The notes beneath the pieces were generated by a model. It saw only the letters and a list, made by a program, of their open reading frames with translations. It was not told the origin of the DNA and searched no databases. A stretch of DNA of 64,000 nt from Actinomycetota bacterium (GTDB lineage Bacteria > Actinomycetota > Coriobacteriia > Anaerosomatales > JAUXNU01): NCBI GenBank assembly GCA_030682655.1, contig JAUXNU010000187.1:1-64000 (forward strand), given 5' to 3'. A program made the translations under genes and the position numbers. Below, piece by piece: positions 45,510 to 50,776 of this stretch. Positions within the stretch are counted from its first letter, which is position 1, and each line of letters begins with the position of its first letter.

Positions 45510-47390
45510 CTATGCCGCCCCCAGCGCGCGCGCGAGCAGGCCGCCCACGAGGAACGCAAGACCGACGGAGCCCGCAAACAGCCCGGCGAGGTAGCGCCAA
45601 CCGCGTTCCTTGGCGATGACCATGACGCTGGCGATGCACGGCACGAACAGCGTGATCGTGACCATGGCCACGAGAAGTTGGGCGCTCGACAGGCTCATAG
45701 AGAAGAACCCGGCCGCCCCGAAGTCGCGACGCACGAAGCCCATGACGAATGCGGTGGCCGCCTCCTTCGGCAAACCGAGCCAACCCACCGTGAGCGGCAC
45801 CAGCGCATTCTGTATCCACGCAAGCGCGCCTGTCACGTCAAGCAGTGAGATGAGCAGTGCGCCGATCACGAAGAACATCGCGACCTCGCGCATGAAGTGC
45901 CACACCTTGGTGACCGTCTTGCGAACGACGTTCTCGGCACGCGGGGTCCGGAGGCTCGGCAGGTCGATCAGCAGGTCCGTCGACACGCCTGGCGTCAAGC
46001 GGTCGAGCGCCGTTCCCACCAGTGCGAATATGCCAAGGAGTGTCCCGAAGTACGCGGCGGCATACAGCGGGCCGACTCCGGCCATGAGGGCGACGATAAC
46101 GGCGATCTGCGCCGAGCATGGCACGGCGATCGCCATGAGTGCCGTCGCGATGAACCGCTCACGCTTGCTTCCGAGGATGCGTGTTGTGAGCGTTCCCATC
46201 GTCACGCAGCCGAGTCCGAGGATGAGCGGAATCACCGCGCGGCCGTTGAGACCGATCGCGGTAAGAGAACGGTCAGCCAGCGCGGCTATCCTTGGCAGGT
46301 ACCCCGAGTCCTCGAGGAAGGACAGGAGGAGGTAGAAGCCCGTCACCAACGGAAGAATCACGCCGATGAGGTAGGTCGGAGTCATCGTGAGTACGCCAAA
46401 CTCGCCCGCGAGAACTGTGTAGACTGGCGACCCTTGTGCCGCGACAGAGCCCACGACATTGCGGACCAGCGGCTCCCAGTAGCCCTGCATGAGCGTCTCT
46501 TCGAGCACGCCGACGAGACCGCCGGCCACCCATTCACCCAAGACCACATACATGCCCCACAGAAGCAGGCCAAGGAGCGGCAGGCCCGTCGCGGGGTGCA
46601 TCATGGCGCGGGACAGTCGCGCGGGGAAACGTACGCCCTGCGTCGTCTCGGTGAGCACGTGCCCGACGATATCGTTGACACGATCGCGTCTGCGCATGTA
46701 GATGGCGTCGCGCTCCTCGCCGGGCTCAAGACCGTGACGCACAGCCACGACCTCGTCGCTCTCGAGCACGAGCAGGGCTTCCGCGCGCGTCCCCACACGC
46801 GCAGCCATGAGCACGAGCTGCTCTTCGAGCTCCAGATCCCCGCGGCCTGTGCGCGCAGCAGCTAGCGCCTTCGTGAGCGCCTCGATGCCCGCGCCCTTCA
46901 CGGCCACGGTCTCGATGACGGGCACGCCGAGAAGGTCCTCGAGCAGGTCACGGTCGATGGCGACCCCGCTTGCCCGCGCCTCGTCGGCCATGTTGAGCGC
47001 AACGACCATCCGCTTGCCCATGTCCACGAGCTGGAGCGTGAGAAAGAGGTCCCTCTCGGGGTGAACCGCGTCCACCACGTTCACTACGATATCCGCATCG
47101 AGGATGATATCGCGCGCCACACGCTCCTCGTCGTTGAAGGAAGAGACCCCGTAGACTCCGGGCGTGTCGATCAGATCGCGGTCACCAATGACCCCGCGGG
47201 TCAGCTCCACCGTTGTCCCGGGGTAGTTCGACACGTCGACATAGAGCCCGGTAAGGGCGTTGAACACGACTGACTTGCCGACATTGGGATTGCCGACGAG
47301 CACGACCTGCTCAACGCCCTCCCGGGCGACCAGCGAGTTCGGCCCGTGGCAGTGGGGTGCGGTTTGCGGAGCCACGACCGACGAAGTCAC
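45510..47390 (-). CDS. feoB: ferrous iron transporter FeoB
   Basis: 626 residues. The G domain carries G1 GNPNVGKS (33-40), a switch I Thr in YPGTTV, G3 DTPG and G4 NMAD, followed by a helical domain. The membrane part holds the two Gate motifs with conserved Cys (near GLGCVTMG and PCSAQI) and about eight TM helices. It lacks the C-terminal SH3-like extension. The GTG at 47390 overlaps the feoA stop (GTGA). It is followed at once by a small Cys-rich gene. Confidence 0.95.
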   Translation of the reverse strand: MTSSVVAPQTAPHCHGPNSLVAREGVEQVVLVGNPNVGKSVVFNALTGLYVDVSNYPGTTVELTRGVIGDRDLIDTPGVYGVSSFNDEERVARDIILDADIVVNVVDAVHPERDLFLTLQLVDMGKRMVVALNMADEARASGVAIDRDLLEDLLGVPVIETVAVKGAGIEALTKALAAARTGRGDLELEEQLVLMAARVGTRAEALLVLESDEVVAVRHGLEPGEERDAIYMRRRDRVNDIVGHVLTETTQGVRFPARLSRAMMHPATGLPLLGLLLWGMYVVLGEWVAGGLVGVLEETLMQGYWEPLVRNVVGSVAAQGSPVYTVLAGEFGVLTMTPTYLIGVILPLVTGFYLLLSFLEDSGYLPRIAALADRSLTAIGLNGRAVIPLILGLGCVTMGTLTTRILGSKRERFIATALMAIAVPCSAQIAVIVALMAGVGPLYAAAYFGTLLGIFALVGTALDRLTPGVSTDLLIDLPSLRTPRAENVVRKTVTKVWHFMREVAMFFVIGALLISLLDVTGALAWIQNALVPLTVGWLGLPKEAATAFVMGFVRRDFGAAGFFSMSLSSAQLLVAMVTITLFVPCIASVMVIAKERGWRYLAGLFAGSVGLAFLVGGLLARALGAA

Positions 47391-47710
47391 TGCAGTCTCG
47401 CCCTCCGGATGTCTGCTGCGCCGACCTGGCGCACCCGGATGCGTTTCGCAAGTCCTCGGCCGATGGCTATCTCCTGGCGCCCACTCTCGATTACGACAGG
47501 CCCTGCGGGGATACGGGTGACGCACCTGACGCAGGAGCCCTGGCAGACGCCGAATCTCAGTGCATGCAACCGCGCGTGGTCGTCGGCAACCTCGATGATC
47601 TCGACCTCATCGCCCCGACGGACTCCGTCGAGAGCTATCTCTTCGCCTGGCCGGTGGTCTCTGACACGTCCGTGCCCGCGTCCACGCATCTGTGCGCCTG
47701 TGAAAAGCAT
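47387..47710 (-). CDS. feoA: ferrous iron transport protein FeoA
   Basis: 107 residues. The SH3-like FeoA fold is evident in the segments VRRGDEVEIIEV, LHALRFGVCQGSCVRC and GPVVIESGRQEIAIGRGLAKRIRV. A 25-residue N-terminal extension is unusual. The extra CQGSCVRC cysteines could bind metal. The ATG at 47710 has GAAGGAG six bases upstream. It is the first gene of feoA-feoB-Cys-rich protein, probably under the palindrome at 47738-47753. Confidence 0.88.
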   Translation of the reverse strand: MLFTGAQMRGRGHGRVRDHRPGEEIALDGVRRGDEVEIIEVADDHARLHALRFGVCQGSCVRCVTRIPAGPVVIESGRQEIAIGRGLAKRIRVRQVGAADIRRARLQ

Positions 47711-47753: not shown

Positions 47754-47946
47754 CGCTACATGTTGTGGAAGCTATTCTCATGCCAAGGACTCCGGCCGTG
47801 GTCAACGCTTCGATGGGTCGAGCCGTCGTCGCGCCCACCGGCGGCGCATCTGGCGGCTCGTGTCTGCGACGACCGTCGCTAGACCTTCGTCGTACTCCTG
47901 TCCGCGGTTTCTCTCGCCCGGGCAGCCGCTATCGGGTATCATCCCG

Positions 47947-48060
47947 CCCGAAGGGGAGTAGCAGCCCGACGCAATGCCGCGTTGGGAGGCAGGCCGTCAT
48001 CACGGGAGCGCGATGTCCCCGGTCCTGCCATCGAGACACCTCGTGTGCGAGACCTTCAGG
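47947..48060 (+). ncRNA. yybP-ykoY-type Mn2+ riboswitch
   Basis: The leader contains the hallmark elements in order: P1 5' arm CCCGAAGG, then GGGGAGTAGC at 47953-47962, a GC hairpin (CCCGACGC / GCGTTGGG), CGTCATCACGG at 47995-48005, a short hairpin (ACAC / GTGT), and finally GAGACCTT at 48049-48056, which completes P1 with CCTTCAGG. The 5' GGGGAGTAGC and 3' GAGACCTT are the conserved Mn2+-binding loop and P1 elements of this class. It lies 38 nt before a P-type ATPase gene, one of the standard targets. Known members sense Mn2+ and usually raise expression. Confidence 0.85.
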
Positions 48061-48097
48061 AGCCTTTCCGCCCTGACAACGATGCACAGGAGGCAGC

Positions 48098-50776
48098 ATG
48101 TCCCCGAACTCCACCCCGCTTGCGCCCGAATCGGTTCCCCCGCAGTTTGTCGTCGAGAAGGCACACACTGTCGCCGTTAGCGACACGCTGTCTCATCTCG
48201 ACAGCGCGCCCGATGGACTGACCGACGACGAGGCGGCGGGCCGACTTGCGGAACTGGGCCCAAACACCCTCCCGGAAGGTGAGGTTCGCACCCTCCCGGG
48301 GATGATTCTCGACCAGTTCAAGGACTTCCTCATCCTGCTGCTTCTCGGTGCCGCAGTGATCTCGGGCATGCTCGGTGAGACCGCCGACACAATCGCGATT
48401 CTGGTCATCGTGGCCCTGAACGCAGTCATCGGCGTGGTTCAGGAGTACCGCGCCGAGCGTGCGATGGAGGCGTTGCGGGAGATGGCCGGTGAGACCGCTA
48501 CCGTGCGCCGCGGCGGTCGGGTCTTCGAGATCCCCGCGTCGCAGCTCACGGTTGGCGACGTGGTGCTGCTTGATGCAGGGCGTGTCGTTCCCGCAGATAT
48601 CCGGATCATCGAGTCCGCAGGTCTTCGTGCTGCCGAAGCCGCGCTCACCGGCGAGTCGCTCCCTGTGGAGAAGTCCGTCGATTCGGTCGCGGAAGCCGAG
48701 GTTCCTCTCGGCGATCGCACGAGCATGGCGTACAAGGGGACGCAAATCGTGCATGGCCGGGGCGCAGGCGTCGTCATCGCGGTCGGACTGTCGACCGAAC
48801 TCGGTAGGATTGCCCACCTCCTCGGCACGGCCGGCGACGTCAAGACGCCGCTGCAGAACCGACTCGCACAGTTCGGCAAGGGCCTCGGACTTGCCGCGAT
48901 AGGGCTCTGCACCATCGTGTTCGGCGTGGGAATCCTTCGCGGGGAAGATCCCCTCGTGATGTTCCTGACCGCCGTCAGCCTCGCGGTCGCCGCGGTTCCC
49001 GAAGCGCTGCCTGCGGTCGCTACAATCACCCTCGCGCTCGGGGCGCGCAAGCTCGTCAAGACCCACACGCTCGTCCGCAAGCTTCCGGCAGTGGAAACGC
49101 TCGGCTCGGTCACCTACATCTGCACCGACAAGACCGGCACCCTCACTCTAAACGAGATGACGGTCGAGCATGTCGCGGCAGGAGACGCCACGCCCGGCAC
49201 GCTTGGGAGCGGCGCCGAAGGCTGGGACTGGCTCGGCAGGGCTCTCGCTCTCTCCAACGATGTTGTCGGCGATGACGGCGCGCTCATCGGCGACCCCACC
49301 GAGATCGCCTTCTACCGCATCGCAGCCGCGTCCGGCTTCGACCCCGTGGCGCTCGACCAGAGCTTCCCGCGCTCGGCGGAGATACCCTTCGACTCCAACC
49401 GCAAGCTCATGACCACGGTGCATGCGTTGCCCGGCGGCGGATACGTGAGCTTCACGAAGGGTGCCGCCGAGGCGATCCTCGAGCGCTCTGTCAGCGCCCT
49501 TGGCGCCGAAGGCGTGGAGTCCGCTGTGGACCGTGTGGCGGCCAGCCAGCTCGTTGACGAGTGGTCCGCCCAGGGCTTGCGTGTCCTCGGCTTCGGTATG
49601 CGCAAGATGGACTCGCTGCCCGCGGACGGGGACTTCGCCACCCTGGAGAGCGACCTCGTCGTCATCGGCTACACCGGTCTGGTGGATCCCCCAAGAGCGG
49701 AGGCCGCCGAGGCGGTCGAAATCTGCAAGGCAGCCGGCATCGTACCGGTTATGATTACTGGAGACCACCCATCCACCGCACTCGCCATCGCAAAGCGTCT
49801 CGGAATCGCCGACGACCCCGAGCAGATGATGACCGGCGCCGAGCTCGAAGAGCTCGACCTTCACCACTTCGAGCAGCGCGTCGAAGATGTCCGCGTCTAC
49901 GCGCGCGTCGCCCCCGAGCAGAAGCTCAAGATCGTGCGCGCGCTCCAGGACCGCGGCGAGTACGTGGCTATGACGGGCGACGGCGTCAACGACGCGCCCG
50001 CACTCGCACGGGCCGACATCGGCGTGGCGATGGGCATCACGGGCACTGACGTGGCCAAGGAAGCCGCGGACATGGTGCTGCTGGATGACAACTTCTCGTC
50101 CATCGTGGACTCCGTCCGAGAAGGTCGGCGCATCTTCGACAACATCCGCAAGTTCATCAAGTACACGATGACCTCCAACTCCGGGGAGATCTGGGCAATC
50201 CTGCTCGCGCCCCTGGTGGGTCTGCCTGTGCCTTTGCTGCCCATTCACATTCTGTGGATCAACCTTGTGACGGATGGCCTTCCCGGCCTCGCACTCGCGT
50301 CCGAGCCGCACGAGAAGAACATCATGCAACGAGCTCCCCGTGCGCCCAGGGAGAGCATCTTCGCCGACGGGCTCGGAATCCACCTTGTCTGGGTGGGCCT
50401 GCTGATGGGCGGCGCATCGCTGTTCACGCAGGCGTTCGCCATCTCGACCGGCGACATGCACTGGCAGACCATGGTCTTCACCGTGCTCTGCCTCAGCCAG
50501 ATGGGACATGCCATGGCCATTCGGTCAGACCGTGAATCCTTGTTCCAGCAGGGGCTGCTGTCCAACAAGCCGTTGCTGGGCGCGGTCCTGCTCACCTTCG
50601 CCCTTCAGATGGCGACGATCTACGTACCGTTTCTTCGCCCGGTCTTCAAGACCGAGGCGCTCACGCTTGCGGAACTGCTGATCGCGCTTGGCATATCCAG
50701 CGTTGTGTTCTTCGCAGTCGAAATCGAGAAGGCCTGGAAGCGTCGCCGTGACGTGACGTTGGTAGCAGGCGTGTAG
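48098..50776 (+). CDS. P-type (P2) cation-transporting ATPase, probable Mn2+/Ca2+ exporter
   Basis: 892 residues. An N-terminal cation-ATPase domain (about 30-90) and TM pairs precede TGES (actuator domain), DKTGT with Asp344 as the phosphorylated residue, a nucleotide-binding domain, and TGDGVNDAPAL in the hinge, all intact. TM4 has PEALPAV, close to the Ca2+-type PEGLPA. It would usually be called a Ca2+-ATPase. The yybP-ykoY leader suggests Mn2+ export (compare lactococcal YoaB, which is riboswitch-controlled). The ATG at 48098 has an ACAGGAGG site. A hairpin follows its stop. Confidence 0.9.
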   Translation: MSPNSTPLAPESVPPQFVVEKAHTVAVSDTLSHLDSAPDGLTDDEAAGRLAELGPNTLPEGEVRTLPGMILDQFKDFLILLLLGAAVISGMLGETADTIAILVIVALNAVIGVVQEYRAERAMEALREMAGETATVRRGGRVFEIPASQLTVGDVVLLDAGRVVPADIRIIESAGLRAAEAALTGESLPVEKSVDSVAEAEVPLGDRTSMAYKGTQIVHGRGAGVVIAVGLSTELGRIAHLLGTAGDVKTPLQNRLAQFGKGLGLAAIGLCTIVFGVGILRGEDPLVMFLTAVSLAVAAVPEALPAVATITLALGARKLVKTHTLVRKLPAVETLGSVTYICTDKTGTLTLNEMTVEHVAAGDATPGTLGSGAEGWDWLGRALALSNDVVGDDGALIGDPTEIAFYRIAAASGFDPVALDQSFPRSAEIPFDSNRKLMTTVHALPGGGYVSFTKGAAEAILERSVSALGAEGVESAVDRVAASQLVDEWSAQGLRVLGFGMRKMDSLPADGDFATLESDLVVIGYTGLVDPPRAEAAEAVEICKAAGIVPVMITGDHPSTALAIAKRLGIADDPEQMMTGAELEELDLHHFEQRVEDVRVYARVAPEQKLKIVRALQDRGEYVAMTGDGVNDAPALARADIGVAMGITGTDVAKEAADMVLLDDNFSSIVDSVREGRRIFDNIRKFIKYTMTSNSGEIWAILLAPLVGLPVPLLPIHILWINLVTDGLPGLALASEPHEKNIMQRAPRAPRESIFADGLGIHLVWVGLLMGGASLFTQAFAISTGDMHWQTMVFTVLCLSQMGHAMAIRSDRESLFQQGLLSNKPLLGAVLLTFALQMATIYVPFLRPVFKTEALTLAELLIALGISSVVFFAVEIEKAWKRRRDVTLVAGV

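Follow-up and report, generated by a model that had tools for sequence, protein, structure and literature searches.

The leader of a P-type ATPase gene in the 64,000-nt stretch of DNA analysed here (the window) raises the question of what its RNA senses and whether this tells which ion the pump moves. The original prediction had read the leader as a Mn2+ riboswitch of the yybP-ykoY type located 38 nt before an intact P2-type ATPase, and had reassigned the pump from a Ca2+ pump to a probable Mn2+ exporter. The hallmark elements were all located, namely GGGGAGTAGC (47953-47962), GTCATCACGG (47996-48005) and GAGACCTT (48049-48056), and the ATPase is indeed encoded by a single open reading frame of 892 amino acids with complete P2-ATPase domains. 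The spacing had to be corrected, as 41 nt separate GAGACCTT from the ATG (48098-48100). Judged from the sequence, the 5' leader of this P2A-type ATPase gene very probably contains a Mn2+-sensing ON riboswitch of the yybP-ykoY type. The type as such is known; what is new is this member, located before an ATPase that probably exports Mn (or Mn/Ca). The locus is composed of the following parts:

47937-47942, plus strand: probable -10 element TATCAT, with similar boxes in orthologues
47948-48060, plus strand: yybP-ykoY (Mn2+) riboswitch aptamer, based on the match to model R1, fold and covariation (see below)
47950-47954, plus strand: 5' strand GAAGG of the switch helix P1.1, pairing with CCUUC at 48053-48057
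47953-47962, plus strand: GGGGAGUAGC, comprising the end of P1.1, loop L1 and the start of P1.2, conserved in the alignments
47965-47986, plus strand: P2 hairpin CCCGACGC/GCGUUGGG, with changes on both sides in 7 of 8 pairs among 29 sequences
47988-48029, plus strand: P3 (GGCAGG+CCG / CGG+CCUGCC) with P3.1 (48004-48007/48016-48019), covarying
47997-48003, plus strand: L3 of 7 nt, UCAUCAC, with A47999 aligned to the Mn-sensing A41 (L. lactis) and A48 (X. oryzae)
48032-48043, plus strand: P4 hairpin CGAG/CUCG, covarying, whose 3' side (48039-48042) can pair with the Shine-Dalgarno sequence instead
48049-48057, plus strand: GAGACCUUC, the 3' side of L1 and the 3' strand of P1.1, from sequence and alignment
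48056-48076, plus strand: hairpin UUCAGG...CCUGA overlapping P1.1, without a U tract, present in most orthologues
48088-48093, plus strand: Shine-Dalgarno sequence AGGAGG, with 48039-48042 as predicted partner when P4 and P1 are open
48098-50776, plus strand: P2A-type cation-transporting ATPase of 892 amino acids, intact open reading frame with complete Pfam domains

The check that had been proposed together with the riboswitch, a search with the Rfam model RF00080, gave no match at the gathering cut-off. The Rfam scan of the 64-kb window returned tRNA only, and the most permissive RF00080 search of the leader alone reached 5.8 bits against a cut-off of 45. This result speaks for a chance match, i.e. 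a leader that contains the conserved words only and is no functional riboswitch. However, RF00080 assigned just 41.6 bits, less than its own cut-off, to the experimentally known mntP riboswitch of E. coli and did not find the one of E. coli alx. Since the model fails with both of these, its non-match is no refutation of the aptamer in the window, and we rejected this argument. In the Rfam 15 copy of RF00080 the 5' strand of P1 is unpaired in the consensus, and the model may need revision. It exceeded its cut-off in none of 61 genomes (that of the window and 60 of the order) and thus misses the whole order, so that regulon surveys using RF00080 alone will under-count.

Model R1 was trained on five Bacillota aptamers (L104, L106-L109), the mntP aptamer of E. 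coli and two aptamers from GDT1 leaders of the same order (L001, L002), with an architecture taken from crystal structures (P1.1, P1.2, P3, the 7-nt L3 and P3.1). ATPase leaders of the window's clade were absent from the training set, which makes the search of the window a held-out test. R1 matched positions 47948-48059 (37.0 bits, E 8e-8), and the second-best match within the 64 kb had 11.4 bits. The ATPase leader was also the only match found across the 2.9-Mb genome; a second riboswitch was not found there, and the GDT1 and TerC genes of this genome lack the motif. At E <= 0.01, R1 had matches in at least 33 of the 61 genomes of the order, in a run that scored only part of the candidates and missed the window's own genome.

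Single-sequence folding resulted in nearly identical helices for the window and for sequences from Bacillota, Deltaproteobacteria and GDT1 leaders, with exceptions such as L105. The predicted fold and the covariation both support a four-way junction of P1-P4 in which L3 separates P3 from P3.1, as is typical of the class. For the main covariation test, 29 leaders of the order were aligned with plain MAFFT, without fitting to the structure. In this alignment 88.9% of the cells pair, and changes on both sides occur in 21 of 34 pairs (11.3 in shuffled alignments). There are 75 double-change cells compared to 27.6 after shuffling (0 of 500 shuffles as high), and the covariation score is 0.209 versus 0.106, with slid-partner controls reaching at most 0.107. 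The switch helix itself covaries (GAAGG/CCUUC, AAAGG/CCUUU, AGAGG/CCUCU), and 98.5% and 100% of the cells are paired in P3 and P3.1, respectively. Aligning 50 sequences to R1 gave 96.1% paired cells and a score of 0.429, values that lean to the structure since this alignment is fitted to it. In three further MAFFT alignments (A2-A4) the L3 of one group is shifted by three bases relative to that of another, and no conclusions were drawn from them. With the held-out match, the strong covariation and the conserved place before the orthologues, a mere chance match is refuted in practice and appears highly improbable.

The nucleotides expected at the metal site are present as well. L1 (GGGGAGUAG) is closed by the P1.1 helix, as in members of the RF00080 class, and A47957 within it is the counterpart of the A-minor residue A10 of L. 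lactis (residue role according to PMC6754395). In crystal structures the Mn-sensing adenosine is the third nucleotide of L3 (UCA41 in L. lactis, ACA48 in X. oryzae; PMC6754395). The C and the A of L3 are invariant in our alignment, and the Mn-sensing A is found at position 47999; the UCA of the window is identical to U39-C40-A41 of L. lactis (PMC6754395, PMC9190785). The yoaB riboswitch of L. lactis (PDB 4Y1I) also shares the architecture, the P-type ATPase target and P1.1 as switch helix. It differs in using an intrinsic terminator, which the window lacks, and the window has GC-rich P2 and P4 helices of its own clade. The L3 of E. coli alx, read from the sequence as UCAUUAC, is one base apart from UCAUCAC. 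Unlike the riboswitch in the window, those of E. coli alx and mntP control the TerC and MntP exporters, and alx is also pH-responsive (PMC9603457).

The position of the aptamer is conserved. It precedes the ATPase gene at the same place in 9 of 9 closest relatives (L020-L028, 70-78% identity), which are Actinobacteria MAGs, one of them named Anaerosomatales. Within the order, the copies fall into several groups. The first comprises orthologues of the window's ATPase (at least 65% identity) without a U tract, and the second another group of ATPases (about 42-46% identity), often with a terminator that uses the 3' strand of P1.1. In further groups the aptamer is located before GDT1 (GDT1/MneA) genes or before genes for a Zn-ribbon protein and TerC; UPF0016/GDT1 and TerC are among the known Mn exporter families (PMC9334652). 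Together with the held-out model, the Mn-site nucleotides and the covariation, the nine orthologues and the occurrence before GDT1 and TerC genes give good support to the riboswitch assignment. Among ATPase homologues from other phyla, R1 matched upstream of L043, L058, L070, L083, L040, L042 and L067 and weakly upstream of L074; for most of the remaining ones no R1 aptamer was found upstream.

Some neighbourhoods deserve mention. One contig (C16 of G050) contains two Mn riboswitches approximately 5 kb apart, before GDT1 (L001/L111) and before the ATPase (L017/L028). A gene for a small protein with a Zn_ribbon_TFIIB domain (PF13453) is situated between Mn riboswitch and ATPase in L040, L042, L067, L155 and L171, and between Mn riboswitch and TerC in L004/L126. 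It is possible that this protein is an accessory of Mn handling. In the window, FeoA/FeoB genes (45510-47710, minus strand) are divergent from the riboswitch-ATPase unit. A divergent feo arrangement was also observed with the second ATPase group (L016, L132), and L020, L021 and L027 have feoA close to the ATPase. Possibly, ferrous-type uptake is linked with Mn efflux.

Which ion the pump transports is less evident from the protein itself. Pfam detects N- and C-terminal cation ATPase domains, the E1-E2 ATPase domain and the P domain, as expected of the P2A type, and the open reading frame contains DKTGTLT. The best profile scores were 688 bits for the PMR1-type TIGR01522 (cut-off 798) and 594 bits for the SERCA-type TIGR01116 (cut-off 703), hence neither of these two curated Ca-ATPase equivalog cut-offs was reached. 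The nearest solved structures, also of the P2A family, are LMCA1 (lmo0841), a Ca-ATPase of Listeria, and SPCA1, the Golgi pump for Ca and Mn. LMCA1 differs from the window's ATPase in having A and R instead of the site-I-like Glu of TM5 and the Gln of TM8. At the positions taken as the ion sites by SERCA numbering, all ten riboswitch-bearing Actinobacterial orthologues possess V-A-V-E, N/E, N-T-D and Q. Compared to 63 homologues without a found riboswitch, these residues carry no Mn signature, the sole difference being V/I. We therefore rejected them as a Mn marker. Since they are alike with and without the riboswitch, the protein sequence cannot tell whether Mn or Ca is transported; the evidence comes from the riboswitch.

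There are precedents for P-type ATPases as targets of this riboswitch class, as had been stated in the original prediction: YoaB of L. lactis and CD2503 of C. difficile are encoded behind yybP-ykoY elements, and in L. lactis YoaB confers protection against Mn2+ (PMC11477304). PMC11434433, which cites Martin 2019, describes MgtA of S. pneumoniae as a Mn2+/Ca2+ ATPase controlled by a riboswitch that senses Mn/Ca. By this description, mgtA (formerly caxP) resembles our locus as a riboswitch-controlled ATPase once named a Ca pump, although it belongs to a different phylum. The latter precedent, the two nearest structures and the non-discriminating ion-site residues would also fit a real riboswitch in front of a pump that mainly moves Ca2+, or both ions, with Mn2+ as signal or minor substrate. 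We regard this as rather unlikely, because the aptamer class controls Mn-export genes, the same RNA heads GDT1 and TerC genes here, and YoaB guards its host against Mn2+. The best reading is that the pump is a Mn/Ca-type exporter induced by Mn2+, and Mn2+ is presumably transported. The step from Ca2+ pump to probable Mn2+ exporter is thus reasonable in the light of YoaB and MgtA. However, it is no clean reassignment, since no curated Ca-ATPase equivalog cut-off was reached in the first place, the residues do not discriminate and the S. pneumoniae precedent is itself Mn2+/Ca2+. Even so, the pump, which would otherwise be annotated just as a cation or calcium ATPase, can now be given a likely metal.

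With regard to the output of the riboswitch, the platform in the window has no intrinsic terminator according to a terminator scan, and we rejected termination of this kind. A sigma-70 consensus scan found no full two-box promoter. The orthologues possess boxes (TATAGT, TACGAT, TACCAT) at about the same distance 5' of P1.1 as TATCAT in the window, and with a conserved -10-like box directly 5' of P1.1 the transcript should start with the aptamer. The hairpin overlapping the 3' strand of P1.1 occurs with differing sequence in most orthologues (mean z -1.6). In the window, the predicted probability that the Shine-Dalgarno sequence pairs with the 3' part of the aptamer is 0.83, compared to 0.17 with shuffled linkers (0 of 100 as high). 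Opening of the start region is predicted to cost 10.2 kcal/mol in the free leader and 6.8 kcal/mol with P1 formed, a difference of +3.4 kcal/mol that 1 of 40 shuffles reached. Over 15 orthologues this difference averages -0.06 kcal/mol, no better than with shuffled linkers (p 0.53). Therefore, we propose translational control for the window and not as a feature of the clade; sequestration of the Shine-Dalgarno sequence as a conserved orthologue feature was rejected for want of thermodynamic support. Pairing of the Shine-Dalgarno sequence with the 3' strand of P1.1 (CCUUC) was likewise discarded, its predicted probability being about 0 in the window; it is predicted in L021, L023 and L138.

Known members of the yybP-ykoY class act as ON switches, with P1.1 being stabilised by Mn2+ (PMC11087558), and we infer Mn2+ binding and the same direction for this aptamer. 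Transcription would start at the aptamer, Mg2+ and Mn2+ would dock L1 on L3 with N7 of A47999 touching Mn2+, and P1.1 would be stabilised. Without Mn2+, P1.1, P1.2 and P4 would open, and the freed 3' strands could form the hairpin 48056-48076 overlapping P1.1 and a helix of 48039-48049 with 48083-48093 over the ribosome-binding site. With Mn2+, the pump would be made and would remove excess Mn2+, perhaps Ca2+ too. Control would accordingly be exerted at the translational level in this model, and Rho may contribute. Rho-dependent termination in place of hiding the ribosome-binding site is the main rival. The E. coli mntP gene is partly controlled by Rho (PMC11647493), and both the missing intrinsic terminator and the inconsistent opening energies over the orthologues would agree with it; the short, GC-rich linker and the strong predicted pairing of the window's own Shine-Dalgarno sequence argue against it, and on balance it seems somewhat unlikely. 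Beyond translational control in the window, one could speculate that the ATPase orthologues of the order share a terminator-less platform with the 3' side of P4 and the P1.2 strand as anti-Shine-Dalgarno sequence, so that arms of the four-way junction and not just P1.1 would act as the switch, and that a large Mn regulon is invisible to the current Rfam model. This extension is doubtful.

R1-type Mn riboswitches were also observed before other kinds of genes in Nitrospirota. In L151, L161, L167-L170, L172 and L173 the riboswitch precedes a gene for an M48 (HtpX-like) membrane protease, an assignment made by Pfam for the L151 protein, whose sequence start is shared by the other loci. In many of these leaders a hairpin overlaps the P1.1 strand, in several cases with a U tract. 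In L154 and L158 the riboswitch is followed by a gene for a beta-carbonic anhydrase (PF00484) and then a Band_7 (HflK-like) gene, an arrangement that L174 possibly shares. Among the papers listed in our literature search, none links yybP-ykoY with HtpX or carbonic anhydrase. Finally, the Mn riboswitch is located before a UPF0182 gene in L152 (similarly in L157) and before the gene of a CitMHS-family transporter in L164.
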